Assembly: GCA_025057645.1 (NCBI GenBank)
Contig: JANXBJ010000021.1
Span: forward strand, 1 to 34,665
Source: Anaerolineales bacterium
GTDB lineage: Bacteria > Chloroflexota > Anaerolineae > Anaerolineales > UBA4823
Direction: 5' to 3'
DNA length: 34,665 nt
Below the pieces are notes generated by a model, which made no database searches, was not told the origin of the DNA, and saw only the letters and a list, made by a program, of their open reading frames with translations. Both the position numbers and the translations under genes were made by a program. Shown piece by piece: positions 1-17,298 of the stretch; the stretch's first letter is position 1, and the number at the start of each line of letters is the position of its first letter.

Positions 1-380
1 ATTACCTCTTTGCCGTGTCTTTGTGCTCTTTCAATCTCACCGATCAGCACATCAACAAAATTTCTCAGAATGCGAGTCTCGAGGTCTTCTCTTTTTCCCC
101 TTAGGTTCAGGGGGACCAACCGAACATCGTAACCCTTGTCTGAGAAATAGTTACCCAAAACACTCGCGCTAAGTTTTGCATTTTCATCTTCGGTATGTAG
201 AAGGACTAATTCATCCCCTTTCTCGAGAAATTTCAACAACGAATTAGTTTCTGCCGATGCTCCTTCAGGATCTTGACGTAAGAATTGCTGCAATTGTATC
301 TCGCTTGGTTGGGTGACACCACGAGACCGCACTACATTGTTCCACAAAGAAATCCCGGTAGTAGTGATTACAACTGCCAT
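1..380 (-). CDS. CARF-domain CRISPR accessory protein, N-terminal part (runs off the left edge)
   Basis: I translated this from the sequence: the ATG is at 380-378 and the frame stays open for 126 codons to the window edge, so only the N-terminus is present. It opens with a hydrophobic strand followed by TTTGIS, the Gly-x-Ser nucleotide-loop signature of CARF domains. An AETNSLLKFL helix and a GDELVLLHTEDE strand-loop follow, as in the APE2256-type CARF family (TIGR02619). CARF proteins bind cyclic oligoadenylates made by Cas10; members are ring nucleases or effector nucleases. The part that would decide between these is outside the window. The gene starts one base after the cmr6 stop, with AGGAG inside the cmr6 end, so it is translationally coupled to the cmr operon. 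The CARF call is fairly sure; the activity is unknown. Confidence 0.75.
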   Translation of the reverse strand, partial: MAVVITTTGISLWNNVVRSRGVTQPSEIQLQQFLRQDPEGASAETNSLLKFLEKGDELVLLHTEDENAKLSASVLGNYFSDKGYDVRLVPLNLRGKREDLETRILRNFVDVLIGEIERAQRHGKEV

Positions 381-381
381 C

Positions 382-1569
382 TCAAGCTCCTAAGGTTTTT
401 TCCATAGAGATGATTTTTCTGCTGCCATCTGGGTTAATGCGATAATTGTACTTGACCGAAGTTTTTGCCGGCAAAGCATTCATCCTCAAAGACGCCCAAT
501 CAACACGCACAATGATCGTGGGATCTTGCACATCAACGATGAAGGGCTTTCCGTTTTCGTATTTGACTTTACCCATCGAAGTATAAATATCTCCTCCGTC
601 TGCTGCTTGGGATGAAACGCTCTCAACCTTGCTTGACGATGCGGTTTGCGTAGACGGTGGAGAGATTTGGTGAATGAAATACCCATATCCTGCACTAGTT
701 TTTGAACCGGCACCTAATTCGGTGAGCCCTTGGATCAGCCAACTCTCACCAAGAAGGCGGAGAGATTCATTCTGCTCCCCACGCCAACCGACAGCAAACC
801 GGAATTCGGTGTTCGCCGCCACAGTGAGAAAATAAACCGGCACGGGGCTTTGCCAATTGGTGGGGAAATCCTTGCCTTGATAATAGTCGGTATAGTGAGG
901 ATTCATGATATCCACATCCAATTGGGGGAGGCGGGTTGGAAACGCATCCAAAAACACCGCGCCGCCGGCTTTCGCAGTGGTTCCGAAAACAGTGCGAAAC
1001 TGAGTAGCCTGGTTTAGCAATTCCTGTCCGCAAGAGGAAAAGCTTTGCTGAAACTCCTTTAGAAATTTCCCATCCTCATCGATACTGAGAAGATCATCCA
1101 ACTTACCCAAATCGGAGGCATTCAGCGCCTTTGCCAATTGGTAAAAGCTCCAGGCACGGGCAATGCCCTTCAAGCTGCTGCCGGGTAGGACGGGGAAACC
1201 ATACCGATTGAAGGTGAAACCCACCTCTAGGGGGCCCTTGCGCCCGAGGCCGCTGATGAGGCGCCATTCAGTCTTAAGCGAAAACGGTTGAGCATGGATG
1301 GCTTTAGCGACTTCTTCCCAACGCTGGTTGAGCGCCTCCAATAATTTCTGATCGGCACGCTGGGCAGCCTTTGTGATCTGCATGAGGGCTTCCTTCTTCA
1401 CATCGGCACTTATCGAAATATCTGGGGCGAAGCGCTCAAAAAGCAAACCCGGATTCTGAGGGAGTTTGTCCTTATGTGCCATGAGAGCCTGAACAGTTCT
1501 AGCCGGCAAAGGGTAACTCAGGCCTGACGGTTTCGGTGCATCCCTTGGGGGAATTGGGGCTGGTTTCAT
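382..1569 (-). CDS. cmr6: Type III-B Cmr6 (Cas7-like RAMP) with a C-terminal extension
   Basis: Cmr6 caps the Cas7-like backbone of the Cmr RNA-targeting complex. The 395-residue product has the family landmarks: a GFPVLPGSSLKGIAR loop near residues 124-138, FGTTAKAGGAVFLDAFP near 195-211, DIMNPHYTDYY near 220-230, and the glycine-rich GAGSKTSAGYGYF near 286-298. I chose the ATG at 1569 because GGAG lies about 8 nt upstream; a GTG two codons earlier (1575) is possible. Most Cmr6 proteins end soon after the glycine loop. This one continues with a Ser/Thr-rich linker (about 303-326) and an extra segment of about 65 residues rich in predicted strands (327-392). The family call is strong; the role of the tail is unknown. 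Confidence 0.95.
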   Translation of the reverse strand: MKPAPIPPRDAPKPSGLSYPLPARTVQALMAHKDKLPQNPGLLFERFAPDISISADVKKEALMQITKAAQRADQKLLEALNQRWEEVAKAIHAQPFSLKTEWRLISGLGRKGPLEVGFTFNRYGFPVLPGSSLKGIARAWSFYQLAKALNASDLGKLDDLLSIDEDGKFLKEFQQSFSSCGQELLNQATQFRTVFGTTAKAGGAVFLDAFPTRLPQLDVDIMNPHYTDYYQGKDFPTNWQSPVPVYFLTVAANTEFRFAVGWRGEQNESLRLLGESWLIQGLTELGAGSKTSAGYGYFIHQISPPSTQTASSSKVESVSSQAADGGDIYTSMGKVKYENGKPFIVDVQDPTIIVRVDWASLRMNALPAKTSVKYNYRINPDGSRKIISMEKTLGA

Positions 1570-1571
1570 CC

Positions 1572-1967
1572 TCACTTCTCCTCACTCAATTCCGCTTCGG
1601 CAAAACGCTTTAACCACAGCAAGAAAGCCATCGCCTCCGCCGTCGCCTGACGGTATTGGTTGGTGGTAGTTCCCTGATCCACGATCCATTCAAGGAGGCC
1701 TTTTGCACCAGAGATCTTCATTTGCTTGCTCACCCAAGCAGAAACGTCCTGATAGATCACCTGATGTTCATCTTGGGGATTACCTTTGCCTTTAGCTTTC
1801 CAGAAAGCTAAGGTCTGTGCAAGGCCGTTGGCTTGCACTTCAGCGGCTGCGCTACGAGCAAGCTGACCATATTTTTGGGCAAAGTCCTTATTGCGGTTCT
1901 TAACTGCCGTAATCTTATCCCAAGCGAACTGGGCACGATTTTGTTCAAGCGAACGTTGATGGCTCAT
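1572..1967 (-). CDS. cmr5: Type III-B Cmr5 small subunit
   Basis: This is the small alpha-helical subunit of the Cmr complex, stacking along the target-RNA groove beside the Cmr4 filament. The 131-residue protein begins with a SLEQNRAQFAWDKI helix typical of the family (TIGR01881). It continues with YGQLARSAAAEVQANGLAQTLAFW and ends with a helix containing AMAFLLWLKRFAEAEL. The length is normal. The ATG overlaps the cmr4 stop by 4 bp (ATGA), and GGAGG lies inside the end of cmr4, so cmr4 and cmr5 are translationally coupled. The cmr6 ATG follows the cmr5 stop by 2 bp. Confidence 0.95.
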   Translation of the reverse strand: MSHQRSLEQNRAQFAWDKITAVKNRNKDFAQKYGQLARSAAAEVQANGLAQTLAFWKAKGKGNPQDEHQVIYQDVSAWVSKQMKISGAKGLLEWIVDQGTTTNQYRQATAEAMAFLLWLKRFAEAELSEEK

Positions 1968-2890
1968 CCCTCACCTCCATCGCTAAAGCGCAAGGCAACA
2001 ATGCCTTGTCCGGTGGTTTCATCTCCGCCAAGCTGAGTGCGCGTAAGGTTCACTTCTATCACCTTTTGAATTACTTCCTTTGCAGTGAGTGGAGTATTCT
2101 TCTCTCTCGTTTTTGTAGCCATGATCGGAGCATATAGCAATGTATCGCTAGGAAGGCTCTCGGTCGTCCAAAGAGCACCGGTTGCCACGGTTTTGGTTTC
2201 CGGGTTGATCTTGATATGGGTTTGTACTTCCGTGGCATACTGAACAAAGTCGCGGAAGGCATCTTCGGGCAGGATGCACAGCTTCTGGGGAAGCACTGCT
2301 CGCCAATACTGGTATTCAGGAGTTTGGGGCAAAGCATAGTTTGCTAGCCATTGACCAATTGCGTTTACAGCAGTTGCATGAGTTTGGTCAGGCTTAAAAC
2401 TAAACTCTTCTAACACCACGCTTTCTCCGGCAACCAACACATCACCGTTGACCCAGGCTGTCTCTTTATCAGGCGGCGCAGGTGGAATCATCGCAGCGAG
2501 TGACAAACCAACAATTTCGGCTGTGCGCTGAAAGCGTTGCAACGCATCCACACTGGTTGTCCAGGCAAAGACTCCAGCCAGCGAGCGCACTGGAAATAGC
2601 AAAAGGCGCGCATCACCAAACGAGATCGCCCCAGCGTAGTCCGAAGCCCCTTCACCGGCTTCGGGACCAAAAATGGCGAGATGTTCCTGCTTGCTAAGCT
2701 TAGAGGAAGAATTAAGCTTAGGGTCACAGGCGGCGCGCATTCTACCCTTTATGCTGCTGGCTTGCACAATGGGATAGTTGGTGATTCGTTCGCGCTGAAT
2801 GGGTAAATCTACCGCACCTAAGCCACGACCCGAACCGGAATGCAGGGGCGTTTCGACATAAAGAAAGAGCATGCGAGTTGCTTCAAACAT
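1964..2890 (-). CDS. cmr4: Type III-B Cmr4 (Cas7 backbone, target-RNA nuclease)
   Basis: Cmr4 forms the helical backbone of the Cmr complex and cleaves target RNA at 6-nt intervals. The 308-residue product has the family opening PLHSGSGRGLGAVDLPIQRER. Asp28 in AVDLPIQRER aligns by eye with the catalytic Asp26 of Pyrococcus Cmr4, so cleavage should be intact. The IVQASSIKGRMR loop and the IFGPEAGEGASDYAGAIS and RSLAGVFAWTT motifs are also present. The frame extends upstream, but the ATG at 2890 is the real start: AGGAGG sits 6 nt before it. The start overlaps the cmr3 stop by 8 bp, a coupling geometry also seen at cmr1/cmr2. Confidence 0.96.
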   Translation of the reverse strand: MFEATRMLFLYVETPLHSGSGRGLGAVDLPIQRERITNYPIVQASSIKGRMRAACDPKLNSSSKLSKQEHLAIFGPEAGEGASDYAGAISFGDARLLLFPVRSLAGVFAWTTSVDALQRFQRTAEIVGLSLAAMIPPAPPDKETAWVNGDVLVAGESVVLEEFSFKPDQTHATAVNAIGQWLANYALPQTPEYQYWRAVLPQKLCILPEDAFRDFVQYATEVQTHIKINPETKTVATGALWTTESLPSDTLLYAPIMATKTREKNTPLTAKEVIQKVIEVNLTRTQLGGDETTGQGIVALRFSDGGEG

Positions 2891-3956
2891 CTTGAACCTC
2901 CTGAATAAAAATTTGACCAAAGCCGATTTGAGCGCCTTTATCGGCAATGGCGTTAGTTTCTAAAACCTGTTTTGTGAGGAACACAGTTCCTTGTGACTCG
3001 AAATAATACACGCTCCCGGCTGGGACATATCGCAGGGCAGGTTTGTGTGCATCCTTTGCCCAATCATACCCGCCGAGGCATTCGTAGCGATTGACCGCTG
3101 CTGCCACCATCGCAAGGTTGCCATCAAAAAACATCTTCCAACTCTCTGGCAGCCATCCGTTCTTGAAATAGGTGGGGGTAGCAAAATAGACCTTAAACTT
3201 AGGGGGCAATTTTCCCGCTGGAAAGTTTTGACTCAAAGAGGGCAGGGGAGGTTGATTGAGGACGGTATAGCCAGCGCCGCGTCCTTCACCACCGATACGC
3301 AATACGCCGTGATTACCCCAGCCATCATACCCTTCAACTTCCATATATAGCCCCACATTCGGGTAGGGACGAACAAATTCAGCCTCATAAAAAGCGTGTT
3401 CGCGGGTAGTGCGAGTGCTATCCTCCCGCCCAATGCCATAGCGCGCTTCTGGTTCAAACAACGTGCTGCTTTGTACGGCACCAACCGGCTTATTTGCAAG
3501 CGCTTCCTGTAGGTTCTCTTCGGTCAGCCATTGCCCGGGCGCTTTCTTGGTCGGTTCCGTTTGAGAATAGAGCAGCTTTTCGGTTGGTGCGCTGGTGATC
3601 AACCGCTCAACCTCAGGTTTCCACAATTTCAGAGCGACAAACTTCTCGCCCTGTGAAACCATATCAGCAGGCACAGGGAAATATCGAGTGAGTATTCCAT
3701 TCTCCCATTTGGCAAGAAAGGGCCCGCGCAAGCGCAAGTTCTTGAAATCTTCACTGGTTCCAACTGCCTCGGCAATGGCAGAGCGGTCATTCAAATCTAC
3801 CTTTTGCAAAACCAACTGATGGGAGCGGATCACACCCTGTATAACGCTGGGGTATGGTGGGAACAGGCTTACCGCGCGATGATCGGACCCAGCCGTGAAC
3901 GGACGTCCATCGCGGAACATCCAAACATCAATTGCCGTAAGAAACAGTTGCATCAT
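2883..3956 (-). CDS. cmr3: Type III-B Cmr3 (Cas5-like crRNA 5'-tag subunit)
   Basis: Cmr3 is the Cas5-like subunit that pairs with Cmr2 and holds the 5' tag of the crRNA. The 357-residue product has the family N-terminus with FRDGRPF at residues 14-20, followed by the PPYPSVIQGVIRSH segment. A central RLRGPF motif and a glycine-rich GGEGRGAGYTVL loop follow. The length is typical for TIGR01888-type proteins. Two consecutive ATGs occur; the first (3956) is 6 nt from AGGAGG and overlaps the cmr2 stop by 4 bp. No damage is seen. Confidence 0.95.
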   Translation of the reverse strand: MMQLFLTAIDVWMFRDGRPFTAGSDHRAVSLFPPYPSVIQGVIRSHQLVLQKVDLNDRSAIAEAVGTSEDFKNLRLRGPFLAKWENGILTRYFPVPADMVSQGEKFVALKLWKPEVERLITSAPTEKLLYSQTEPTKKAPGQWLTEENLQEALANKPVGAVQSSTLFEPEARYGIGREDSTRTTREHAFYEAEFVRPYPNVGLYMEVEGYDGWGNHGVLRIGGEGRGAGYTVLNQPPLPSLSQNFPAGKLPPKFKVYFATPTYFKNGWLPESWKMFFDGNLAMVAAAVNRYECLGGYDWAKDAHKPALRYVPAGSVYYFESQGTVFLTKQVLETNAIADKGAQIGFGQIFIQEVQDV

Positions 3957-5698
3957 TCACCACCTCCTTGAGCAACGAAGCGCGCAAAGACCAACCAACG
4001 CCCAAGCTCTTCGCTTTTGCCGGGCAATTCCTTCGCCCAACCCAGCAAGCGATCGCTACACTCTGCGACATTCACCAATTCAGGATTCTTCTTGTTACGA
4101 TGGCGTTTGAGCAATCGCCTTAACTCGCTCTCAAACTTCTCGTCCGATGCGGACAAAATGCGTGAAACTTCCAAGACGTCATAAGCAAAGCGAGAAGCCA
4201 GCGGTGAACCTTTCCCTTGGATATCTTGAAAAAGTTGGACGCATTTTTCAAAGTTGGTCTGTCCCCCTGCGTCGCTACCTATACTTTTCCAATAACTGCG
4301 TAAGTCAAATTGTTCACCGCTGCGCTTGAGCACGCGCACGCTTACTGCGCTTTTGCCATTCAAATTCTTGGCATTTGTTAGAGCACGGAGAGCTGCTTGA
4401 CGCACTGCATCCAAGGGATAGAGATGGTGAGCAACCGCAATGCCGGCGGATAAAGAACAAGGAACCTCGAAATTAGGGGGTTGCTTAACCTTCGCAGCAA
4501 ACAACTCAGCCAATTTTTGGGCAAGAGGTATCGCCTGGGTCAGGGGAGCTAAAACCAGAACATCATCGCCGCCGTTATAGATTAGCTCTCCAAAATGATG
4601 AGTGACAATACCGGGAACCAGCTCGGCAAATTTGGCCAACTGTTGGCTGAAATCTTGATGCTGATCTTCTTGCTGACAGGCAGAAATACTCATCCCCATG
4701 CTATCGCCATCCAATTCCAGCAGGGCAAAGTAGGGAGAAGGCGCGCCAACCTGACTATACAGTGTTTTCAGCTTCTGTCTTGCCGCTTCGAGAGCGGTAT
4801 GATCGAGGTTCTCTGCCCGATAACTGTCTTTGAGACGATTCGCCTCTAAGGTCTCCAAGAAAAAGAGATCGCCATCATAGGGCCAATCGGGCTCAGGGCG
4901 CACGCGATAGAGGTGACTGCCGAGCAAATGTTCTACCGCCTGACGGTAGTCTTTGAGGGCTTGTGGTGATCTCTTTTGAGCAGTTGCCAAGTATTCTTGG
5001 GTAGCAACGCTGCTGACCGAGAGAAAATTTTTCCCGCCGGCTAAATCGCAAAAGCGTTTGACGGCACCTAAGGCATCGAGGCGTTCTTTTCCCTCTGGCC
5101 GCACCTGGGCAGCAGGGAAATTTTTTGCCACCTGCTTCCAATATTCGCGCGCATCCTGGTCATTGGTGCGGAGGGCAGAGCGTTTACCACTCAACGTATC
5201 CTTCAAGCCATCTTCTTCGCTAGGCAAAAACCATCGCGTGCGTTTGACTGCGTCAAGTGCACGGCTCGCTTCGGAGTAGGTTTGGGCGTAGTTCTTATCC
5301 ATCCGTTGGGCTACCCAATAAATTTCCCAAATTTGCCCAACTTGTCGCTTCCAAATCTGATCCCAAACAGCATCTGGCTTCGGTTTTGCTTGAGTGAGGA
5401 CTTTGCGAGCACTCTCTGCAATCTCCTGCCACTCCCTTTCTAGGGCTGCTTGAGCTTGCTCGGCAAGGCTTCGAGCACGATCAAACGGCACCCGCGCAAC
5501 CAATTTATTTGGCATATCGTTTGAGTTGGGATTAGCAGGGTAGATCATGGTAACCCCGTTGGTTTTGAGTGAGCGGGCTGCAGCATAGGATAAGCGAGAG
5601 AGGATCTTACTGCTGGCAAAGAGGTCACTCGCTCGCCGAGCCTCCCCAATAAAGGACTGAACAGGGCTAAAGGTAAAGATCAAGATGGCTTCAGACAT
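3953..5698 (-). CDS. cmr2: Type III-B Cmr2/Cas10, GGDD cyclase intact, no HD domain, zinc cysteines replaced
   Basis: Cas10 is the large subunit of the Cmr complex and makes cyclic oligoadenylates when target RNA binds. The 581-residue product starts directly at the first palm region (FTFSPVQSFIGEARR), so the N-terminal HD nuclease domain of longer Cas10 proteins is absent. ELDGDSMGMS near residue 330 and the cyclase motif YNGGDDVLV (GGDD at about 376-379) are present. The zinc-ribbon positions, usually CxxC...CxxC (as in CTLCGxRxAL and ERLCALCxVKR), read DTLSGKRSAL (D167, S170) and ERLDALGAVKR (D208, G211), so all four ligands are replaced. The ATG at 5698 is chosen for its upstream GAGG and its 8-bp overlap with the cmr1 stop. 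It probably signals and binds RNA without Cas10 DNase activity. Confidence 0.94.
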   Translation of the reverse strand: MSEAILIFTFSPVQSFIGEARRASDLFASSKILSRLSYAAARSLKTNGVTMIYPANPNSNDMPNKLVARVPFDRARSLAEQAQAALEREWQEIAESARKVLTQAKPKPDAVWDQIWKRQVGQIWEIYWVAQRMDKNYAQTYSEASRALDAVKRTRWFLPSEEDGLKDTLSGKRSALRTNDQDAREYWKQVAKNFPAAQVRPEGKERLDALGAVKRFCDLAGGKNFLSVSSVATQEYLATAQKRSPQALKDYRQAVEHLLGSHLYRVRPEPDWPYDGDLFFLETLEANRLKDSYRAENLDHTALEAARQKLKTLYSQVGAPSPYFALLELDGDSMGMSISACQQEDQHQDFSQQLAKFAELVPGIVTHHFGELIYNGGDDVLVLAPLTQAIPLAQKLAELFAAKVKQPPNFEVPCSLSAGIAVAHHLYPLDAVRQAALRALTNAKNLNGKSAVSVRVLKRSGEQFDLRSYWKSIGSDAGGQTNFEKCVQLFQDIQGKGSPLASRFAYDVLEVSRILSASDEKFESELRRLLKRHRNKKNPELVNVAECSDRLLGWAKELPGKSEELGRWLVFARFVAQGGGE

Positions 5699-6899
5699 AC
5701 CGCACCTCGATAAGCTCAAGACCTTTCTCCATTAACGAGCTGTGATTTTGTGCGTCTGGGCCTGTGAGAAATGTTTTGATAAGGTGATTGTTTGGCAAAC
5801 CACCTGTAGCCGAAATGCCTTTGCCGGTTAGTTTGAGTTTTTCACTCTTAGGAAGAAAAACAGAGTGAAACCAGATCAGGATTAAGGCATAGGTGCCGTT
5901 TGCCAAACGGCTGACACGGAATAATAGCGGCGAGGATCGTCGGTCGTAGTGCTCACTTTGCAACCCAGCGCTCTTTCCACCCAAGGAACTGTAGTAAAAC
6001 TGAATTGGAAGACCAAAAGCGGCTCGCTCAACAGGTTTAGCCAAAGTCTTTCCACCAATAGCATCTTTGACCGTCGTATAGTCGGGTTGGCGGCGATGTC
6101 GAAAACCCTGAAAGGTTTTACCCAACTCATCAACTGCTTCCTGCCAACTCTTATAGGTTTTCTCGCAAACCCACAGCTTACAAACATCAGGATGCAGGAT
6201 ATCATAAGCAGAGGGTCTCGAAACCGCGTCCGGAAAATAGCTTTCAGACAGCAACTTGCGACATTGAGTGATCCCTACCTCAAGTTCTGTGGCTAATTCT
6301 TGGGGCGTTTTTGCGGAAATCTTCAAGGGTAAATTGCCTAAGAGCGGAAAATCACCCTCTACATCCATCACTTGCAAATTTCCACCAGCGCGACGAGCTC
6401 GACTTCCTAGTCCACCAAGATGCAACCATAACCAGAGTGCTAGATAGGCTTCTTGGAAGCGTTGATGAGCTTGTTTTACGCCCAAGCGCGACTGAATTTC
6501 AAGTCGAAACTCACCCACCAGAGCATAGCGCTCCTTTTCTTTTCTTGTACCCCTTGCTGAAAACCAAAGGTAAGCTATGCCGGGATACTTCGCTGTTTTT
6601 TTGATGGTATCTACTCCAGTCAATACGGAGTAGGAAGCAGACCGGAAGGTGGGGTTGCGGAAACGCAGCGTGATCGCAGAAGCCCCAATCTTGTCATCAG
6701 CTTTACCGAAAACTTGGTTTTCCAAATCAGAAAGCTTATCTCTATCTTTGTCTCCCACTACTCCACCGATTGCAGCGCGCAACCAATAGCGTAAGGCGCC
6801 CCGTATAGCTGGTGGGCGTAGCTCTGGTTCATCGCGCGGATCGAAACCGCCTAAAAATAAAGGGGTAACTGTTTCCAATATCAAAGTTATTTCATTCAT
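5691..6899 (-). CDS. cmr1: Type III-B Cmr1 (Cas7-like RAMP)
   Basis: Cmr1 is the terminal Cas7-like subunit at the crRNA 3' end and takes part in target recognition. The 402-residue product has ETVTPLFLGGFDP near the N-terminus, then RPPAIRGALRYWLRAAIGG, the family's arginine-rich segment. GSRARRAGGNLQV lies mid-protein and a PLLFRVSRL region lies toward the C-terminus. The frame runs 16 codons upstream, but the ATG at 6899 is preceded by AAGGAG seven bases away. It is the first gene of the cmr run and follows the broken CARF-HTH gene after 108 bp; I see no convincing promoter in that gap. Confidence 0.94.
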   Translation of the reverse strand: MNEITLILETVTPLFLGGFDPRDEPELRPPAIRGALRYWLRAAIGGVVGDKDRDKLSDLENQVFGKADDKIGASAITLRFRNPTFRSASYSVLTGVDTIKKTAKYPGIAYLWFSARGTRKEKERYALVGEFRLEIQSRLGVKQAHQRFQEAYLALWLWLHLGGLGSRARRAGGNLQVMDVEGDFPLLGNLPLKISAKTPQELATELEVGITQCRKLLSESYFPDAVSRPSAYDILHPDVCKLWVCEKTYKSWQEAVDELGKTFQGFRHRRQPDYTTVKDAIGGKTLAKPVERAAFGLPIQFYYSSLGGKSAGLQSEHYDRRSSPLLFRVSRLANGTYALILIWFHSVFLPKSEKLKLTGKGISATGGLPNNHLIKTFLTGPDAQNHSSLMEKGLELIEVRYV

Positions 6900-7007
6900 T
6901 TTTTTCTCCTTTTCCAGAGAGACAAACAAACTTACAACACGCTGCATTGGCTAAGAAAATAACCGATTCCTAAAAGTTTGGCATCCCAATCCACTCCTAA
7001 TTTTTGC

Positions 7008-7871
7008 TCAGTTCACCTCCTTTCTGAGTGCAAAATATAAGCCAAGGGTTGCCACCAAGACTGCCCGATCGGGTGGGCGTTCCGGAAAATCTAAAAACTC
7101 GTTCAACTTGGCATACGCGCTGGTCAGTTGGTTGGCAACGGTGGCTTCACTCTTCACTAGGTGCGCGGCGATGGCAGCGTTATCCCAGCCCAAGCAAGCC
7201 AGGCGCACCACCTCACGCTCGGCGCGGGTTAGCTTGCGTTCGACAAACTCACGCACCCGCCTAAGGTCATCAGCGCGGGCAAGGTGCTCTTGTCTGCGCA
7301 GGGCTTCTTCGGGGTCGTCCAATTCGCCCAGAGCAGTCAGCAGTCCCACCGAGTCAGTCCAGCGCAGAACAGGTACAGGCACCAACCAAATCTTATCCTG
7401 CGGAGCTGCGTGCATTCGCACCTCGCCGCCTGGCTTCCACCCTTCGCTGATTAGGTGCCACACCCGGTCTTCGGCGCTAAAGAGCAGTTGTGCAACGAGT
7501 ATGGCAGAAGCACCCATCACCTTCCGTCCCCCTGAAATACAGAGGTGAACCACACGGTTCTGACGGCGACTCTTGCGCACTTCCCGATATAGGGTTTTGC
7601 GCAAGGCACGCAAATCATCCTCGGTCGAAAAATCTTGTACAGCGCTGCGCTCACCCATGATTGGCATGGCACGCAAGGCAACTTGCGGATAGGCTGCACC
7701 AGCAAAACTCTAACAACTAGACATGCCATTGATTCAAGAATCGGCTCGGCAACGGCATAGACCACAATGGTAAGAAATTGGATAACCGCACTGCAGCAAC
7801 TGATCGAGGGTCAGCGTGATCACTTGCGGTTCACTGCCTAGCGTGGCGATGAATGCGTGTCGGTTATTCAC
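7008..7871 (-). pseudogene. Disrupted CARF/ring-nuclease-like protein (NE0113 type) with C-terminal LuxR-type HTH
   Basis: Three conceptual pieces of one protein lie head to tail on the minus strand in two frames. Piece 1 starts at GTG 7871 (GAGG 5 nt upstream) and reads RHAFIATLGSEPQVITLTLDQ, the CARF N-terminus of the NE0113/TIGR02584 family. Near 7771-7781 the likely reading moves by one base to TIVVYAVAEPILESMACL. Near 7700-7712 it returns to the first frame with FAGAAYPQVALR and continues unbroken to the stop at 7008. That last part holds DFSTEDDLRAL, the family motif HLCISGGRKVMGA and a LuxR-like HTH (about 7092-7232, containing LTRAEREVVRLA and TVANQLTSAYAKL). In the first frame TGA (7736-7734) and TAG (7712-7710) block translation. 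The family binds or degrades cyclic oligoadenylates; the HTH suggests a cOA-responsive regulator. It may be a pseudogene, or the consensus sequence may have errors; a shorter protein from TTG 7676 could still be made. Confidence 0.72.
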
Positions 7872-7987
7872 GCAATCCTCAACTTTGGGTTTGATAGAAT
7901 AACGGCATTCTTCTGCACTCCTCTTTCTGGGAAAAGCATCCAATGGCCTTTGGACCCATCTCAGGACTACACTTGGGAGATATTTAT

Positions 7988-8983
7988 TCAATTCATCGCC
8001 TTAACTTGAGATTGCGACAACCAGTATCCATTATTTTCTCCCGTTCTGACCTGAAACACCCCATTTCCTTTGGCGGTCAATTTGCCCACTTGCACGCCTT
8101 GGCCGAGGATCAACCACGGCAGTAGCGGCTGCCAATCCTTCGTCCTGTACACTGCCCAGCCGACAAAACCGCCCATTGGGGTGCTCTGTCCACGCCTCGA
8201 GGAAGGCCCCCATAGGTCAACCCAATGCGTCGATTGCTCAACCAGACGCACTTGATCGGCCAGGGTATAAAGAGATGCGAGCTCCTCGGCCGACCTCCGT
8301 CCGGCGCCATTGTGTTGGCGGGCAAGGTCATCCATACGTTCCAGCAGGCGGCGGAAGATCACCCCAAAGTCCGGCGCTTTGACCAAGGATTCCGAGTCGA
8401 TCAACCGTGTGGGGGAGAGAAACTGTAAAGTGATCTCTCCATCCACCGGCAAGCGAGCGGCAAAGTCCTGCGCGTCCTCCCAGCCAATCGGCAAGTGCTG
8501 GGGACGAACCACGCGCTCATTCTCGGCTAAGATCACCGCAGTTTCCCCTCTCAACGGGTGAACTGCTTGGATCGAACGAATTTCAAACTTCCCCCTCCCC
8601 GGCCCTACACCCACCTCGCCCATCGCCTCGGCAGCTAAGACAAAATAGGGCAAAAAGCGGTAGCCCTCACCGAACAGAGTGAGGGTGAAATGAAACTCCT
8701 GACCGGCTTCTAAAAGATCGATCGGTGGTTGCGGCCCAACGAGGCTATACACCCGACGCACAGCACCGGGAGTGGTCTCGGCGGCCAGCAACCAACAAGC
8801 CGGACACACCGCTGCGTGTTCTGGGGCGGGTTTTTGGGTACGATAGGTCTCGGGGCAGACAGCGCGCAGCATCACTTGGGCGAGGGCATCGCGCAGACGT
8901 TCAGCGCCTTGATATCTGCCCAAACGGATCGGTTGTTTCGCCCGAGCGGCGAAACGGAGATGAACGAAAGTGAGCGTGGTCAT
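7988..8983 (-). CDS. cas6: Cas6 pre-crRNA processing endoribonuclease
   Basis: Cas6 cuts CRISPR repeat RNA to give mature crRNA guides. The 331-residue product fits the RAMP-type Cas6 family (PF10040). It has an N-terminal half with AVCPACWLLAAE near residue 60, GPGRGKFEI in the middle, and a C-terminal RAMP fold with GGFVGWAVY followed by the glycine loop GKLTAKGNGVFQV. I cannot assign the catalytic residues by eye. The ATG has GGGAGG 8 nt upstream and starts 18 bp after the cas3 stop, as last gene of the type I-B set. It is the only Cas6 in the window, so it may serve both the I-B and III-B complexes. Confidence 0.88.
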   Translation of the reverse strand: MTTLTFVHLRFAARAKQPIRLGRYQGAERLRDALAQVMLRAVCPETYRTQKPAPEHAAVCPACWLLAAETTPGAVRRVYSLVGPQPPIDLLEAGQEFHFTLTLFGEGYRFLPYFVLAAEAMGEVGVGPGRGKFEIRSIQAVHPLRGETAVILAENERVVRPQHLPIGWEDAQDFAARLPVDGEITLQFLSPTRLIDSESLVKAPDFGVIFRRLLERMDDLARQHNGAGRRSAEELASLYTLADQVRLVEQSTHWVDLWGPSSRRGQSTPMGGFVGWAVYRTKDWQPLLPWLILGQGVQVGKLTAKGNGVFQVRTGENNGYWLSQSQVKAMN

Positions 8984-9001
8984 CGTTGTATCCTCCCTTG
9001 A

Positions 9002-11383
9002 TCAGTCCCATTCGTCATCAATTGAAGGCTCTTCAAAAGATAATCCTAGCTCAGATGTATATGTGGTCATCACGACGGGTGGGAAGCGTTGATCCCCGGC
9101 CTTGACCAAACCCCGATTCGCTAACATGTGATATTGTCCCCACCTTAGGGGCACCAAAAGCTCCTCAGCCGTAATCGGCTCGCTTTCTAGGTTCGAGGTA
9201 TATTCCTCATAAAGGTCAATAGGGAGCACCTCAATACCATCGAAAAGGCGATTAAATTGGTTTTCGATTCGGTTGACTGTATAAAATGGACGCAGAGTAT
9301 CTACGCAGGCGGTTTCAAACTCCCTTACCGATTGTCGATACTCTCTTTCCCACTGTTCCGCAATCCGATCAGCGTAGATTTCATCCAACCACTCATTAAC
9401 TTGATTTTCATCCAAAACCCTCCCGTTATGGGAACGCAGGAGCTGCAGGGTTCTTCGGATTAGCTCGGGGTTATAAATTCGTTGCCCATCTGAAGGCTCG
9501 CTAAACACATTTACATCTACCTGAACTCCTCTACGTCCGGAACGATTCACTCGCCCAAAGCGTTGGACGAGCGCTTCTAAGGGCGCCGGATCACTAAAAA
9601 GGACATCCAAGTCGATATCTAAACTGACTTCGATGACCTGTGTAGAAACTAACACGACCGATTTCCGCTTTGAATTCCCCCTGCCGAACAGGTCTTGGAT
9701 CGCCTTTTCCTTTTTCATCCGGTCGCGTTGGTGAAAGCGGCCGTGAATGAGGAGAACTTGTGTAGATAGGGGAAGACGAGTGGATAAAATTTGATAGGCT
9801 TGTTGAGCGCGAGCTACGGTGTTGCATACCACTAAGACGCTCTTCCCAGCCTCTGCCTCGTTGGCCACGAACGATAGACTGTCCAATAAATCCCCCTCGC
9901 GGTAACGCACAATATGGCGCTGGAATTGATGATAAAGAGCTGGCTCTGCGGTAATCGTGTGGACGTCCCCGAGGGCTTCGCAAATCCACCGACGGATTAG
10001 AGAAGGAAAGGTGGCGGACATTATAAAAAAGCACGCTTGGTAATTTTCCTTCAAATGCCGAATCGTCCTAAGGATCATCGCCAGACGGTTGACTTCATAA
10101 GCATGGATTTCGTCCATGACGAACAAAGCACGGTAATAATCAACCAACTGGGCTTCGTACCCTTTTAGACGATACATCGCCTTGAGCATTTGATAGGGAC
10201 TAAAGATGCGAATGGGTGGATAATTCAATTCAGCTAAATTTTTCATCCAGCGTGCTACAGAGGCTGCCCGTTCAGGCTCATAGTCCCTCTCCATCAGGTT
10301 ACGGTAAAGCGCCAACAATCCTCGCCCGTGTTGAAGACCCACAGTAAACTCCCCGAAGAGATGGCTCAAGCGCCGCTTCATGGCATTCATGCTGGCTTGA
10401 TAGGGCAGGGTATAAAACAAACGTGCAGCTTTCGGTTGCTTTGCTGCCCAGAGCAAGGCAGCCTCGGTTTTCCCACTCCCGGTGGGCGCTATCAGTATCG
10501 CCGAACCTTCCACTTGAGCAGCATCGCGCTGATGGGCGTACAGTTGCTGAGGGTCTAATTGACGTTTTCGGAGGATCGTTTGTGCTTGAATTTGTAATGC
10601 AGGCAGTTCCTCCACATGAGCAGAGGCGCTGTGGTCAGCCTGAATAACAATACCGCGCAGAATGGTCAGCGCAGTCAAGAGGCTTAACCGTTCCATTCCC
10701 CCACTGAGAGCTGTAACCCAGCTCTGATAGCGAGCAAGGCAGAGTCGAGTATATTTTGCACCTTCCAATTGCAGTTGCTTAACGGCTTGATCTGAACTTA
10801 TGAATTGGACGGGGTGAATATTAGCAAAACCCAGGCCAAGCTGCCCAATCCACGCAGCGCCACAAACATCTAACCACTTCCATAACGACTGTAAAGTTTG
10901 CCCAGGAAACTGGCGCATTAACTCATCTAAATCATCTTCCTCATCCTCATCAAAAGTGGGGTAAAGTTCCCTCAGCTCTGTGGGCTCCCGATGATGGGAC
11001 ACGATCGCAGCGATCAGCCACAGCATTTGGTCTTCCTCAAAGCTATCCGCAAACCAACCAAGGAACGGCAAAGACAAAACCTCATGGCGATGGGCAGACC
11101 ATACCGCTTTGGCTTTCTTATCTTTGCGCAAAACTCCCTGAAAGGCCGGATGGGCTTTGCCGAAATCGTGCAGGAAGATCGACCAATAAAGCAGATGCCA
11201 CAGATCTGCTCTATCTACCTCAGTCGGCAGAGTAGGACGAAGGCGAACGAGCTCTGCAAAGCGCAACAATACCATCCATGTATGGGCAGCCAGGCTTTCC
11301 GGCTCGCCGCCTGCCCCTTTTTCGGGGCTTTTTGCCCACAAATCCTCCAGCCAATCAGGATAGGGATGTGGACGCTTGATCAT
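9002..11383 (-). CDS. cas3: Cas3 helicase-nuclease (HD plus SF2 helicase), type I-B
   Basis: Cas3 is recruited by Cascade to unwind and degrade target DNA. In the 793-residue product the HD nuclease comes first: HTWMVLL (His34), FLHDFGKAHPAF (His72-Asp73), AHRHE and SHHRE, so its metal ligands look intact. The SF2 helicase follows: Walker A APTGSGKTEAA near 299-309, motif II DEIH near 424-427, SATFP near 456, and motif VI with RFGRVNRSG. The start is uncertain because TTG, GTG and ATG codons lie close together (11389-11381) without a clear ribosome-binding site. I chose the ATG. It lies inside the end of cas5 (29-nt overlap), so translation is probably coupled to cas5. Confidence 0.95.
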   Translation of the reverse strand: MIKRPHPYPDWLEDLWAKSPEKGAGGEPESLAAHTWMVLLRFAELVRLRPTLPTEVDRADLWHLLYWSIFLHDFGKAHPAFQGVLRKDKKAKAVWSAHRHEVLSLPFLGWFADSFEEDQMLWLIAAIVSHHREPTELRELYPTFDEDEEDDLDELMRQFPGQTLQSLWKWLDVCGAAWIGQLGLGFANIHPVQFISSDQAVKQLQLEGAKYTRLCLARYQSWVTALSGGMERLSLLTALTILRGIVIQADHSASAHVEELPALQIQAQTILRKRQLDPQQLYAHQRDAAQVEGSAILIAPTGSGKTEAALLWAAKQPKAARLFYTLPYQASMNAMKRRLSHLFGEFTVGLQHGRGLLALYRNLMERDYEPERAASVARWMKNLAELNYPPIRIFSPYQMLKAMYRLKGYEAQLVDYYRALFVMDEIHAYEVNRLAMILRTIRHLKENYQACFFIMSATFPSLIRRWICEALGDVHTITAEPALYHQFQRHIVRYREGDLLDSLSFVANEAEAGKSVLVVCNTVARAQQAYQILSTRLPLSTQVLLIHGRFHQRDRMKKEKAIQDLFGRGNSKRKSVVLVSTQVIEVSLDIDLDVLFSDPAPLEALVQRFGRVNRSGRRGVQVDVNVFSEPSDGQRIYNPELIRRTLQLLRSHNGRVLDENQVNEWLDEIYADRIAEQWEREYRQSVREFETACVDTLRPFYTVNRIENQFNRLFDGIEVLPIDLYEEYTSNLESEPITAEELLVPLRWGQYHMLANRGLVKAGDQRFPPVVMTTYTSELGLSFEEPSIDDEWD

Positions 11384-12101
11384 CACCAACAAACGAATGA
11401 AATACCAAGCCTAGGTGCCTACCCCGCACTTCCGGCGATTGGGGATCGACCCAAAAGCGAGGAGCCCGATCTTGGTCAAACAAGAGCAGCTCTTCTGGGC
11501 AGTAGATCCGTTCATGAACAATGAAATAGCGCTCAAAAGTTGGTCGCCTTCCGTGCACATAATCGATCCAACGCGGCATCAACACGGCGTAGCCTCGATT
11601 GGTAAAACGATTTGCCGAATAGGGCAGAAGGGTGTGCTCGAGATAGGCATGATCTGACTCTTGAAGCTCGATGATGGAAACGGCGCTATAGGTAAACAAA
11701 TCCTGAGACCGTCCCAAGACCACGGCATACTTTGGGCTGCGAAAGGCATCAATCCAATCTGAGCGGTCAAGATAGAGAACCAGACGCGGTTGGAAAAGAA
11801 GGGTGCGCCGAAAAGGATTTACATTTCCCTCAAGCACTCTGGGATGGGAGAAACCGGGTAAGCTCCCTTCAGGAGGCCCTAGGAGGATGATATGCTCTAG
11901 GTCATCCGCCTTTGCCGCATAGCTAAAATGGTAGGCAAAGCGCACCTTGCGGGGGTCAAACCATTCTCCCAGAGCCGAGGCAATATGTCCGTAAATGGTT
12001 GCCGGAGGAGGCATCTCGTAGGTAGGGTGAATCTGATACATAAAGTGCGGATAGCGGAAGGATGTGGTAATTCCCTCCGCGACCACTTTCAAGACCCGCA
12101 T
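11355..12101 (-). CDS. cas5: Type I-B Cas5 (Cascade crRNA 5'-handle subunit)
   Basis: Cas5 caps the crRNA 5' handle in the Cascade complex. The 248-residue product has the N-terminal RAMP strand RVLKVVAEGITTSFRYP and the MPPPATIYGHIASALGEW helix typical of Cas5 from Cst/Tneap-type I-B systems. The C-terminal region contains RGRHLGLVFHSF. The ATG at 12101 is 5 nt from AGGAGG and 9 bp after the cas7 stop. Its 3' end overlaps the cas3 start. Length and motifs look complete; I did not distinguish Cas5t from Cas5h-like subfamilies. Confidence 0.9.
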   Translation of the reverse strand: MRVLKVVAEGITTSFRYPHFMYQIHPTYEMPPPATIYGHIASALGEWFDPRKVRFAYHFSYAAKADDLEHIILLGPPEGSLPGFSHPRVLEGNVNPFRRTLLFQPRLVLYLDRSDWIDAFRSPKYAVVLGRSQDLFTYSAVSIIELQESDHAYLEHTLLPYSANRFTNRGYAVLMPRWIDYVHGRRPTFERYFIVHERIYCPEELLLFDQDRAPRFWVDPQSPEVRGRHLGLVFHSFVGDDQASTSLS

Positions 12102-12110
12102 AGCGTCCTC

Positions 12111-13175
12111 CTAATCCAACCAACTTCCCTGCTGCTGTAAATCTTGGATAAACTCCCGAAATGCTAGACGAGGATGATGGATCGTAACCCTACCAGAATA
12201 AGCCCGACTGAATTCCTCAAAGCGAGCGCGCTCCTCATCGAGATAACCCTTCGTCCAGCCCACATAGACAGGAGATAGAATTTCGTCTTTGAAAACATCC
12301 ATTACCTGTTCAAATGCTTCATGGTTGACCCGTGGCTGCCCTTTTGCATCGGCACTAACAATGTGGTTGAAGATATGGTTGCCGCCTTTGGTGACCGCCA
12401 TGAAGACAATCACTGGTGAAACGTCGGTATAGTGCAATGCCAATTTTGCGCCCCCTTCTAAGAGAGTCAAACCCTCAAACAAAGCACTAATGCGCTGAAT
12501 GCGCTCCTCCTTGGAAAGGCGGTAGCACTTTTGGTCCTCAAGATGTTCTAGCCCAGCCTCTGCTGCCTGCTTCTTACGCTCTTCATCCAAATTGCGATAA
12601 CCGGTCTTCTGGACATAAGTGAAAGTGCCGCAAGCAGCTAGATTTAGGGAGAACAATCCCTTCAGGGTTGTGCGGTAGAACTGGTGTTCAAAGGGAACAG
12701 GATCTCCCTCTTGGCGTGCCATAACGCCGAAGTCCTGCGTCAAGGACACCGGAGCGAGGGAAACCAGCGTACTAACGCGAAACGGTGATACTCTCGTGAC
12801 TGTATCCGTCGTAGGAGTCTCGGCCATCCGACTGGTATCCGCTTCGCGAGCAGCTCTGGCAGAGGCTCGGGTGGATTGGGCACGCATATAGCCAAAAAGG
12901 TCGTCGTCCCAGTACTTTATCGGATTGCTGTCCGTGTAAGCGACTTTCTCCTCACGATAAACTGGGGCAGCTTTCCAACCAATGCCTGCCTTTTCTAGGG
13001 TTGTTCTCAGCCAGTAGCGAAAGGCTTGGGCGGAAACGTAAGGATAATAGCCATCTTTGGCTCTGATTACCTTTACCCCGGTGGTGTTGTCGGTCCGTTC
13101 GCCGGGGATACTTCCTAGGTTATTGAGCGCCGAAGCCGGGGCATCGATGAGGAATAAACCGGTTACAAAAGCCAT
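12111..13175 (-). CDS. cas7: Type I-B Cas7 (Cst2/DevR family), Cascade backbone
   Basis: Cas7 polymerises along the crRNA to form the Cascade backbone. The 354-residue product starts MAFVTGLFLIDAPASALNN and carries the DNTTGVKVIRAKDG and YPYVSAQAFRYWLR signatures of the Cst2/DevR family (TIGR02585). A SLAPVSLTQDFGV segment and DVSPVIVFMAVTKGGNHIF lie further on. The frame stays open upstream into cas8, but the ATG at 13175 has AGGAGG 8-10 nt before it and matches the family start. It begins 17 bp after the cas8 stop, in a cas8-cas7-cas5-cas3-cas6 operon. Confidence 0.93.
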   Translation of the reverse strand: MAFVTGLFLIDAPASALNNLGSIPGERTDNTTGVKVIRAKDGYYPYVSAQAFRYWLRTTLEKAGIGWKAAPVYREEKVAYTDSNPIKYWDDDLFGYMRAQSTRASARAAREADTSRMAETPTTDTVTRVSPFRVSTLVSLAPVSLTQDFGVMARQEGDPVPFEHQFYRTTLKGLFSLNLAACGTFTYVQKTGYRNLDEERKKQAAEAGLEHLEDQKCYRLSKEERIQRISALFEGLTLLEGGAKLALHYTDVSPVIVFMAVTKGGNHIFNHIVSADAKGQPRVNHEAFEQVMDVFKDEILSPVYVGWTKGYLDEERARFEEFSRAYSGRVTIHHPRLAFREFIQDLQQQGSWLD

Positions 13176-13192
13176 GTTTCGCTCCTCCTTTC

Positions 13193-14665
13193 CTAAATAA
13201 CATTCTCCTGATCTTCCACAGGAAGCTCGGTAAGAACTTCCTCGTGAGTCCCGAACCACCCTAACTGATAGAGACGCTCAATCATGCGGATGAGCACCAG
13301 ATCACGCGCCAACCGCCAATCGCCTGCGGGAATCTCCAAGCCCTCCTCAAAGATTTGAATGTAAGAATCGAAAGAAAGGATTGGTGGCTTCCTCCGACTT
13401 ACTGCAGCAAGATTTGCCTTCAACAGTGTGTTGCGAAAGTAGTCATATCGATTCTGGGTGAAAAAGTCACGAAAGAAACGAGTGTCATTCTCTGCGTTGA
13501 CATACTCGGCGAGCACATCGCCTAAGTTGCGAATCTTTTCAATTCTTTCTTTCTCCATATTCAGGATCCTCCTTAAGAATTCGCTGGGAATCTTCCAATT
13601 GACAATATCCGCTTCGCTAAGAAACGAATATTCACTCCTGGGATCTTGGGCATCCTTGCTCCTCACTGGTATTCTCAGAAAGTATGTGCGGAGGAAGCGG
13701 CTGGCGTTCTCAGGGAGAGAGAACAAATCTTCGAATAGATAATTTTTAGGCGGGACGAATGTCTCGTCAGAGGCCCCCTTCTTGATAGGCGGTTTTTGCC
13801 ATGCCCGTGTTACGATCTTTGACCACTCGTTGCGGTAGCCAGCCGATTGCACAATGCGTAAAAAGGCGATCGTTTGCATTGGAAGGTGATAAATATCGAG
13901 AGAGGGGCCTTGTCCGCTGTTGCTAAAATGATAAGCAGTGATAGAAAAAGGTTGATCTTGGCTTTGAGCTTCTTTTTGAAACTCGGTTGCCTCCAACAAC
14001 AGCTCAACTAACAAAGTGCGCTCAAGACGGTGGACGTCTGGTGAAAACTTCTCACGGTTTTGCCGTGCCAGTTGGATCTCTAGGCGATTTTGTTCTAGAA
14101 ATTTTCGGGCGAAATAAATCATGATCTCTGGATTATCGGAATGAACTGCAAGCAACTTCCCTGCAATTTTTACACAACCAAGAGGGAGGGCTTGAATAGC
14201 TAGCAGCGCCTCACCTGAGACGGGCAGTCCTGCGTCGCCGTAGGGGAAAAAGTTGATTACATCCTCGCCAGTCAAAAGAGGAATGTGTTGGCGATAGGCG
14301 CGCCCCTTCGAGCGTTTCTCGGTTTCCTCGACACCGAAAGACTGATCGGCAATCGGCAGACCGAGAAAAACATCAACTTCCACGCGTTTAGGGACTTCGG
14401 GGGAAAAAGCTCTGAGCACTTTTTGAGCGTAAGCAGCCTTTTTGTGAGGAGTTTTACTGTACCCCGGTTGTGTATAGCCAGCATTCATTGTAAACGCAAT
14501 CGAAAGATAGCCTGTCATGCAAGGGTCAACATAGATTTCTGCCAAATAGTCGGCAACGGCCTGTAAATCCGAAGTTTCCAATTCTTCGGGAGAACTTTTG
14601 CCACAGAAAGCTGTAATAGTAGCAATCCCGACATCCACGAAAGGATGCCCACAAAACTTGAGCAT
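13193..14665 (-). CDS. cas8b1: Type I-B Cas8b1/Cst1 large subunit without its CxxC pairs
   Basis: Cas8 is the Cascade large subunit, recognising the PAM and recruiting Cas3. The 490-residue product has the Cst1 landmarks FCGHPFVDVGIATI, RQHIPLLTGEDVINFFPYG, ALLAIQALPLGC and KLLAVHSDNPEIMIYFARKFLEQN. The family (TIGR01908) is named for two CxxC motifs. Here the expected positions read DVFLG (D98-L101) and PVSGEALL (S150-A153), and no CxxC occurs anywhere in the protein. I infer loss of the zinc site with the fold kept. The ATG at 14665 has AGGAGG 6 nt upstream and follows the WYL stop by 10 bp. Confidence 0.85.
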   Translation of the reverse strand: MLKFCGHPFVDVGIATITAFCGKSSPEELETSDLQAVADYLAEIYVDPCMTGYLSIAFTMNAGYTQPGYSKTPHKKAAYAQKVLRAFSPEVPKRVEVDVFLGLPIADQSFGVEETEKRSKGRAYRQHIPLLTGEDVINFFPYGDAGLPVSGEALLAIQALPLGCVKIAGKLLAVHSDNPEIMIYFARKFLEQNRLEIQLARQNREKFSPDVHRLERTLLVELLLEATEFQKEAQSQDQPFSITAYHFSNSGQGPSLDIYHLPMQTIAFLRIVQSAGYRNEWSKIVTRAWQKPPIKKGASDETFVPPKNYLFEDLFSLPENASRFLRTYFLRIPVRSKDAQDPRSEYSFLSEADIVNWKIPSEFLRRILNMEKERIEKIRNLGDVLAEYVNAENDTRFFRDFFTQNRYDYFRNTLLKANLAAVSRRKPPILSFDSYIQIFEEGLEIPAGDWRLARDLVLIRMIERLYQLGWFGTHEEVLTELPVEDQENVI

Positions 14666-14675
14666 AAATCACCTC

Positions 14676-15656: not shown

Positions 15657-15730
15657 ACCTCCCTCGTTATCCCAACAAACACCTTATAAACTCGCTAAGG
15701 CCGGTCAAGCCGACACATACACTTTCCCCT

Positions 15731-15736
15731 ATTATA
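15731..15736 (-). promoter_or_regulatory. Candidate -10 box (TATAAT) of the WYL-cas operon
   Basis: On the minus strand this hexamer reads a perfect TATAAT and lies about 75 nt before the WYL start codon. At 16-18 bp upstream the -35 position reads AGGTTC, CAGGTT or GCAGGT, none close to TTGACA. Such a promoter would be weak or activator dependent. The inverted repeat at 15747-15763 covers that -35 position. Confidence 0.4.
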
Positions 15737-15746
15737 TAAGGGATGG

Positions 15747-15763
15747 GTTGCAGAACCTGCAAC
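15747..15763. promoter_or_regulatory. Perfect inverted repeat, candidate operator
   Basis: The plus strand reads GTTGCAG-AAC-CTGCAAC: two exact 7-bp arms around a 3-bp centre. It covers the -35 region of the candidate minus-strand promoter, and a related CTTGCAAG lies 11 bp further upstream of that promoter. The WYL regulator encoded next door is the obvious candidate binder. Binding is inferred, not shown. Confidence 0.45.
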
Positions 15764-17247: not shown

Positions 17248-17254
17248 CCGCCTA

Positions 17255-17274: not shown

Positions 17275-17298
17275 AAAACTAAATTTTGGAGTTTAGAG

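Follow-up and report, generated by a model that had tools for sequence, protein, structure and literature searches.

A CARF–LuxR-type gene, broken as read, before the type III-B CRISPR operon of an Anaerolineales bacterium, and a conserved operator-like promoter at the 3′ end of its relatives

We analysed by computation 34,665 nucleotides of an Anaerolineales bacterium (the window, which is the whole of contig C13 in a 3.1-Mb assembly of 63 contigs, 95.75% complete) and found in it a gene that joins a CARF domain to a LuxR/GerE-type HTH, is broken as read, and lies directly before the cmr genes of a type III CRISPR system. At the 3′ ends of many of its relatives, ahead of type III genes, there is a conserved promoter with an inverted repeat at the −35 element. 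This operator-promoter before cmr1, and its tie to the CARF-HTH genes, point to a transcription factor responsive to cyclic oligoadenylate (cOA) and serving the adjacent type III operon as the most likely role of the protein. We consider it rather probable that the window holds the broken form of such a sensor, the intact members of which would bind both cOA and the repeat at the type III promoter.

Results

The genes on the minus strand of the window run from a WYL regulator through a type I-B-like set (cas8b1-cas7-cas5-cas3) to cas6, the broken CARF-HTH gene, cmr1 to cmr6 and a truncated second CARF gene (Table 1). With all of cmr1-6 and the cyclase motif of Cas10, the operon downstream of the CARF-HTH gene is of type III-B. 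The cas5 and cas8b1-like calls come from NCBIfam only, and cas5 scores below the Cas5t cut-off. The second CARF protein is possibly a cOA effector or ring nuclease of the locus; its TIGR02619 score, 34.2 bits, is under the cut-off of 37.45. The cmr1 frame as listed begins at 6947, and an ATG at 6899, preceded by AGGAG, suggests a later start, which would leave room for a promoter. No CRISPR array was found in positions 1-17300 of the window (direct repeats of at least 22 nt). Ribosomal-protein genes adjoin the CRISPR locus, and a gene of the APH-type phosphotransferase family (15948-17054, plus strand) lies between the two.

Table 1. Features of the CRISPR locus in the window.
Feature	Positions	Strand	Evidence
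HTH-WYL-WCX regulator, head of the type I part	14676-15656	-	family search
Type I-B-like cas3, cas5, cas7, cas8b1-like	9002-14665	-	family searches
cas6, directly upstream of the CARF-HTH gene	7988-8983	-	PF10040, 58.1 bits
N-terminal piece of the CARF-HTH gene, GTG start at 7871 (VNNRHAFIATLGSEPQVIT...), CARF motif I ATLGSEPQ	7734-7871	-	profile E 1.8e-12; ends with TGA 7736-7734
Segment with homology in the other frame (TIVVYAVAEPILESMACL...)	7707-7772 (limits approximate)	-	frame-aware alignment and shuffles
C-terminal piece: remaining CARF with motif II GGRK, linker helix, LuxR/GerE-type HTH	7008-7709	-	profile E 5.6e-65
Operator-like 22-mer (AAAAATTAGGAGTGGATTGGGA), just past the stop at 7010-7008	6984-7005	-	PWM trained without the window
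Promoter-like: -35 ATGCCA (6984-6979), 17-nt spacer, -10 TATTTT (6961-6956)	6956-6984	-	same PWM match
cmr1	5691-6947	-	TIGR01894, 44.5 bits; likely true start ATG 6899, AGGAG before it
cmr2/cas10	3953-5719	-	TIGR02577, 151.8 bits; cyclase motif GGDD in translation
cmr3	2883-3956	-	family searches
cmr4	1964-2947	-	family searches
cmr5	1572-1967	-	family searches
cmr6	382-1575	-	family searches
Start of second CARF protein, Cas_APE2256/TIGR02619 type, cut by the contig end	3-380	-	PF09651, 41.2 bits (cut-off 24.8)

A first-pass annotation, made from the letters of the window, had read one protein spread over two frames between 7871 and 7008 on the minus strand, an NE0113-type CARF protein with a LuxR-type HTH, broken and placed directly before cmr1. 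All of this was borne out by the family searches and the gene order. The N- and C-terminal pieces match one profile, built from 19 open relatives (L019, with its unclear N-terminus, was excluded), and a stretch of about 65 nt splits the frame. The N-terminal piece covers profile positions 3-34, and the C-terminal piece, a 222-codon ORF in the same frame, covers positions 63-287. The latter ORF scored 102.9 bits against PF09623 (cut-off 23) and 24.9 bits against PF00196, GerE (cut-off 23.5), giving it an HTH of the LuxR type. In a whole-genome family search that reads through stops, PF09623 positions 1-205 matched at 7284-7832 with 124.4 bits, one TGA and one TAG lying within the match. The two stops that had been noted in the bypassed segment, TGA at 7736-7734 and TAG at 7714-7712, are indeed present in the sequence. 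The second frame change undoes the first.

The earlier reading is at its weakest for the middle piece in the other frame (LTIVVYAVAEPILESMACLV), which holds against closer relatives and is marginal against the distant profile. With the distant profile, 44 of 800 dinucleotide shuffles reached the same score when a frameshift cost 6 bits; at 12 bits the best path skips the segment, so that the test is powerless at that cost. A local test found matches as good in 42 of 1000 shuffles and in 101 of 1868 other 72-mers of the window. When a profile of 14 closer relatives was used, shuffles did as well in 7 of 2000 cases with the cost set to 6 bits and in 27 of 2000 with it raised to 8. At the position of the middle piece, the orthologue with 73% identity reads VVVVYTADDAVLKAMARVA in the alignment.

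The gene may be intact in the organism, both frame changes being errors of the consensus, and we rate this only somewhat short of an even chance. The changes cancel, the aligned relatives are open, and the C-terminal part breaks just 2 of 31 columns that are invariant among 14 relatives, where open rows break 0 to 6. However, the 38 other ORFs scanned in the window are all single open frames (36 match a Pfam family and the other two an NCBIfam family, some with partial coverage of the model), and it is unlikely that two independent errors in 34.7 kb would fall within about 65 nt of each other. Nor was a long homopolymer seen at either frame change, as the first-pass annotation had said, and the branch of the window is longer than that of its sister (0.27 versus 0.14). 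Relative-rate counts of window versus sister were mixed, at 27 to 14, 16 to 16 and 13 to 15 with three outgroups. Two programmed frameshifts, which would likewise cancel and give a full-length protein, we regard as extremely improbable and dropped: both shifts would have to fall in a 65-nt stretch where no slippery run is obvious, and the relatives encode the protein in one frame. A template switch at the junctions was also considered, and the inverted repeats nearby gave no convincing explanation.

Close relatives of the gene are open. The nearest that we found lie in open frames of 301, 292, 327 and 297 codons, with 73, 66, 54 and 51% identity (genomes G468, G682, G443 and G425, respectively), the first three of them in other Anaerolineae; a contig search with the window protein as query confirmed no relative. 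The genome itself has a second CARF-HTH copy on contig C11, an open one, which another Cas10 palm domain follows at a distance of 1.9 kb. Yet another Cas10-palm-like match of this genome (G000:C9:1254-1454) has no CARF-HTH match in the surrounding stretch, L133.

To place the gene more widely, we used a hand-typed set of 60 loci with matches at E 1e-10 or better in 51 genomes. A type III gene lies within 5 kb downstream in 46 of them: 44 have a Cas10 palm domain on the same strand at 5 kb or less (median 1.9 kb), and two more have a RAMP gene, RAMP positions being used at four places only, for loci without a Cas10 match. Neither was found downstream in the other 14, several of which are at contig ends. 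One more qualifying match, G657:C29, is absent from the 60 and would join the loci that show no type III gene, its genome having yielded no Cas10 match. Whether the gene always precedes cmr1 had been raised as well; it often does, but not always. Of 40 context loci, in two sets of 20, that were compared with the Cas proteins of the window, 11 have cmr1 as the first gene recognised after it, 3 in one set and 8 in the other.

The 73% orthologue lies between a WYL gene and a Card1-like gene (L088:7752-16721), before a III-D-like operon of Card1-like, Cas10, Csx10, Csx7-like and Csx19 genes, and its frame overlaps the WYL regulator gene. The 66% orthologue comes after cas6, as the window copy does. 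With III-B and III-D-like contexts both represented, the CARF-HTH gene precedes type III operons of at least two subtypes.

We then asked what the two domains resemble. In a PDB profile search with 18 sequences, the CARF part matched Sso2081/Crn1 best (E 1.4e-10) and the C part matched GerE (E 2.2e-8). An AlphaFold2 model of the orthologue from Anaerolinea thermolimosa (pLDDT 85.1, from a seven-row alignment) has a CARF fold, a long helix and a helical C-terminal region. The CARF part of this model, which is of an open orthologue and not of the window copy, gave Z scores of 17.4 to Cad1, 17.2 to Sis0455 and 17.0 to Sso2081. The fold search barely covers the helical C-terminal region, and the evidence for the HTH comes from sequence profiles; some relatives are below the GerE cut-off and score higher on other HTH models. 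The score above the PF09623 cut-off and the CARF Rossmann fold of the orthologue model place the protein in PF09623. Scores for narrower families were all below their cut-offs: TIGR02584 gave 26.1 bits for the C piece and 32.7 for the open relative L024 (cut-off 80.65), Csx14 (TIGR03642) gave 49.7 and 75.3 (cut-off 90.35), and Csa3 (TIGR01884) gave 19.2, with 20.6 for L024 (cut-off 60.2).

The accessible text on Sso2081 (PMC10018336) reports that Ser11 of motif I matters for cleavage, whereas binding of cA4 depends on Arg105, Asp75 and, less so, Lys106, and requires motif II, GGRK/R. The motif I GTS of Crn1, with its catalytic Ser, is absent from the window protein, which reads GSE. We compared 49 relatives chosen by pattern (a motif-I-like string ending in PQ or AQ together with a motif-II-like string, members without either being uncounted), and found at the position of Ser11 Glu in 37, Lys in 6, Gln in 5 and Thr in 1, and Ser in 0 of 49. 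Motif II reads GGRK in 36, GGRR in 7, SGRK in 5 and GGSK in 1, and was counted as kept in 48 of these 49. The equivalent of Asp75 aligns with a nearly invariant Asp, D100 as we read the numbering. The missing Ser11 and the retained motif II suggest that the protein probably binds cyclic oligoadenylate and probably does not cleave it well.

These residues bear on the earlier guess that the protein is a second-messenger-controlled regulator or a ring nuclease, a brake on cOA signalling. We dropped the ring nuclease as main function, as motif I lacks the catalytic Ser in all 49 relatives and the cOA-binding motif II is kept in 48; of the two halves of the guess, the regulator is the better one, and the operator-promoter at the 3′ end of the gene, described below, speaks for it. 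A ring nuclease that also binds DNA, and so still acts as a brake, seems quite unlikely to us. In its favour, the CARF domain is among the nearest to Crn1 and Sis0455, NCBIfam labels TIGR02584 a ring nuclease, and Sis0455 keeps activity without Ser11 according to the available part of PMC10018336, so that loss of the Ser is compatible with cleavage. Against this stand the Ser missing throughout, the TIGR02584 score far from its cut-off, the 35.1 that an open member scores versus 125 for Crn1, and the conserved operator beside the gene, which points to regulation.

Past the stop codons of the CARF-HTH genes we saw inverted repeats in the DNA, and a conserved promoter at the 3′ end of the genes, with an ATGACA-like −35, a TAnnnT −10 and an inverted repeat whose centre is at about −42.5. 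After removal of near-duplicates, 59 of the 3′ regions were kept. The pattern TGACR-N15..18-TAnnnT occurs in 22 of these 59 downstream flanks (200 rounds of shuffling gave 0.44 on average and 2 at most), and only in 4 of 45 flanks upstream of the gene. A 5-bp repeat is found within the first 80 nt in 25 of 59 (shuffled mean 12.2, maximum 21); under a strict test, in which the repeat has to adjoin the promoter pattern, it is found in only 3 of 59 (shuffled mean 0.025). When the last 30 nt of the gene and a slightly wider −35 were included, the promoter pattern was present in 26 of 59 regions, versus 11 of 434 3′ ends of other long frames in the same loci (stop-to-stop frames of at least 250 codons, not all of them genes).

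A promoter matrix was trained on 26 of the 59 regions, the window not being among them; its consensus is CGAAATTAGGGGATATCCCGCATGACA, 17 nt, TAAACT. In leave-one-out scoring, with related loci remaining in the training, 37 of the 59 loci were above the 99% level of 354 shuffled regions. The 22 loci below it include the closest orthologues of the window, L088 and L059, though the same spacing can be read there. In three of the loci scored negative (L028, L030 and L032) the site lies beyond the scanned stretch, 107 to 130 nt downstream.

The centre of the dyad is 8 nt before TGAC, where pairing is 0.52 versus 0.34 at the next centre; with a 17-nt spacer this is −42.5, the position of the lux box. 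Pairing of the half-sites in the 37 loci was 0.52, against 0.48 expected from the columns, and in a subgroup of 24 it was 0.53 against 0.56. When half-sites were swapped between loci, own partners scored 172 and swapped ones 160 on average, 50 of 1000 swaps being as high. The dyad is a property of the consensus, and covariation between its halves across loci is weak or absent. A terminator or attenuator hairpin was considered for the 3′ end and seems the poorer reading: the repeat, in the sites shown, has no T run after it and keeps a fixed distance from the −35 and −10, which a promoter-operator fits better.

Several features of the sites were seen along the way. The −35 TGAC overlaps the stop codon TGA in L029, L034, L047, L051, L053, L056 and L101, so that the repeat lies in coding sequence there, and it may be the DNA, not the protein, for which tails like GENPHD and GNPA at the C-terminus are conserved. 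The III-B-linked loci L098, L099, L024, L091 and L095 carry, further upstream, an additional inverted repeat that is more perfect, such as GGGAAGAAATTCCC or GTAGGAATCTCCTAC. The type of half-site seems to go with the HTH subtype (KSEHT, LSEQT or LSPRT).

The window has a site of its own just before cmr1, AAAAATTAGGAGTGGATTGGG-ATGCCA-N17-TATTTT (7005-6956, minus strand). It scores 14.6, exceeding all 354 null values, and no other position of the window, on either strand, scores above 11.1. Its −10 is about 57 nt before the likely cmr1 start codon. As one control locus reaches 14.0 (see below), the score alone is not decisive, and the position is. Compared by eye, the operator agrees with that of the 73% orthologue at 20 of 24 positions, and few positions agree in the spacer. 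The site of the C11 paralogue has an ATTAGG half in common with the window site.

The exact operator-promoter pattern occurs 15 times in the 51 genomes, 14 times at a CARF-HTH 3′ end and once at a distance of 10 kb in such a locus; since the pattern was derived from these sites, it is its rarity elsewhere that counts. One mismatch adds 12 places, of which 4 are CARF-HTH 3′ ends, 1 is about 325 nt past such a match and 7 are elsewhere. The reversed pattern, used as a control, gave 14 places at up to one mismatch, so one-mismatch matches are no commoner than in the control. In 22 loci outside the training, the best site of the locus was at the CARF-HTH 3′ end in 9 at a score of at least 15 (these 9 include L027, which nearly duplicates L023, and L092, which nearly duplicates the trained L091) and in 13 at a score above 9.4; in 9 of the 22 the best site was off the 3′ end of the gene or scored 9.4 or less. 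Among 18 Cas10 loci selected because no CARF-HTH gene precedes them, none had a score of at least 15, and 3 exceeded 9.4 anywhere, the best being 14.0; two of these control loci contain weak CARF-HTH-like frames, and their total length is 128,570 bases versus 305,622 for the CARF-HTH loci.

These controls also bear on the alternative that the conserved site is a type III promoter under another protein, the CARF-HTH protein acting elsewhere. The tie is one of neighbourhood only, and the window contains a WYL regulator, as does the locus of the 73% orthologue, where it lies beside the gene. The site, however, tracks CARF-HTH genes and reaches 15 in none of the 18 Cas10 loci without one, and a homologue of the WYL regulator of the window was found in 2 of 40 context loci, which are stretches of limited length. 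We therefore regard control by another protein as unlikely, and the CARF-HTH protein as the better candidate for acting at the site.

Discussion

In the mechanism that we propose, Cas10 would make cOA upon infection, and the CARF part of the regulator, of the Crn1/Cad1 type and without the catalytic Ser of motif I, would bind the cOA from the neighbouring Cas10. The LuxR-type HTH would act, as a dimer, on the inverted repeat at the −35 (centre −42.5), and the promoter at the regulator's own 3′ end would drive the type III operon downstream, cmr1-6 in the window. Activation induced by cOA, or release of a repressor, would yield more type III complex after infection has been sensed; a cOA-dependent repressor would have the opposite effect. 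The III-B regulator of this genome would have been lost, or would seem lost through consensus error, and its target site remains.

The position of the repeat, that of the lux box, slightly favours activation by cOA over derepression, and with it positive feedback. Repression may also be at work: the −35 is fairly good by itself, which sets it apart from most activator-dependent promoters, and a dimer bound to the repeat could just as well keep RNA polymerase out. The prediction that loss of the gene would remove a brake on cOA signalling does not stand in that form, as the outcome would hinge on the sign of regulation; the open C11 paralogue, moreover, may serve the site in the window and substitute for the lost regulator. 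A bolder version, which we put forward tentatively and would not call probable, is that the CARF-LuxR proteins of Anaerolineae serve as dedicated cOA receptors, each turning on its own type III operon through a lux-box-like operator at −42.5, an alarm amplifying the expression of Cas10 (or lifting its repression), and that in the window the receptor has been lost and the operator kept, with the C11 paralogue perhaps running both systems.

Control of transcription by cOA is best known from the archaeal Csa3, and feedback of the alarm on type III expression in bacteria has, to our knowledge, been little explored. Csa3 is an experimentally studied CARF-wHTH regulator, and Csa3b activates cmr genes in Sulfolobus islandicus, as the accessible parts of PMC8844856 and PMC9704534 have it, so feedback on type III by a CARF regulator is not new as an idea. 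Like the protein studied here, Csa3 joins a CARF to a DNA-binding domain and has a part in cOA-linked regulation of CRISPR genes; it differs in having a winged, MarR-like HTH instead of a LuxR-type one, and a fixed operator at the 3′ end of the regulator is not described in those parts of the two papers.

The closest known CARF domains belong to proteins of other architecture. Crn1 (Sso2081, Sis0455) is the closest solved CARF by sequence and among the closest by fold, sharing motif II GGRK and the Asp75 equivalent; it differs in having a helical insert in the CARF, no HTH, and the catalytic motif I that the CARF-HTH proteins are missing. Cad1 (CARF-adenosine deaminase), which gave the top fold score, carries a deaminase where the CARF-HTH protein has the HTH. 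LuxR has the same GerE-type HTH and acts at an inverted repeat at the −35 with the same centre, but has an acyl-homoserine-lactone sensor domain in place of CARF, and the repeat of the lux box differs in sequence from the CARF-HTH repeat.

The NE0113 family (PF09623, TIGR02584, Csx14/TIGR03642) has the same CARF domain, with no nuclease effector found, and its proteins were predicted to regulate transcription directly by Makarova et al. 2014 (PMC4012209); the accessible text of that paper describes neither the LuxR/GerE-type HTH, nor the location ahead of type III genes, nor the 3′-end operator-promoter. CalpL/CalpT/CalpS also turn a cOA signal into a transcription response, as stated in the available part of PMC11229360, but do so through a protease that releases a sigma factor. 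None of the literature found names a CARF-LuxR protein, as far as its accessible text goes; the CARF classification of 2020 (PMC7498327), which was outside the search, may describe the architecture. Likewise, the combination of a LuxR-type HTH, a place before type III genes and a 3′-end operator-promoter was not found in the accessible text of the literature searched.

Nucleases and other damaging effectors make up most of the cOA receptors characterised so far, according to the accessible part of PMC9704534. A receptor whose operator can be recognised next to its gene would make a ready reporter, consisting of one protein, one 50-nt promoter and one ligand. Genes labelled 'ring nuclease' in the NE0113-type family may, by the same token, be transcription factors.

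One exact operator-promoter lies away from the 3′ end of a CARF-HTH gene. This second copy in L115 (L115:6046-6086; G276:C4:42545-42585, minus strand) is 10 kb downstream in the same locus, and is possibly a second target of the regulator. It precedes a 106-codon frame and a frame starting MKKCPSCARDNHDDAMFCWHC, which looks zinc-ribbon-like by eye.
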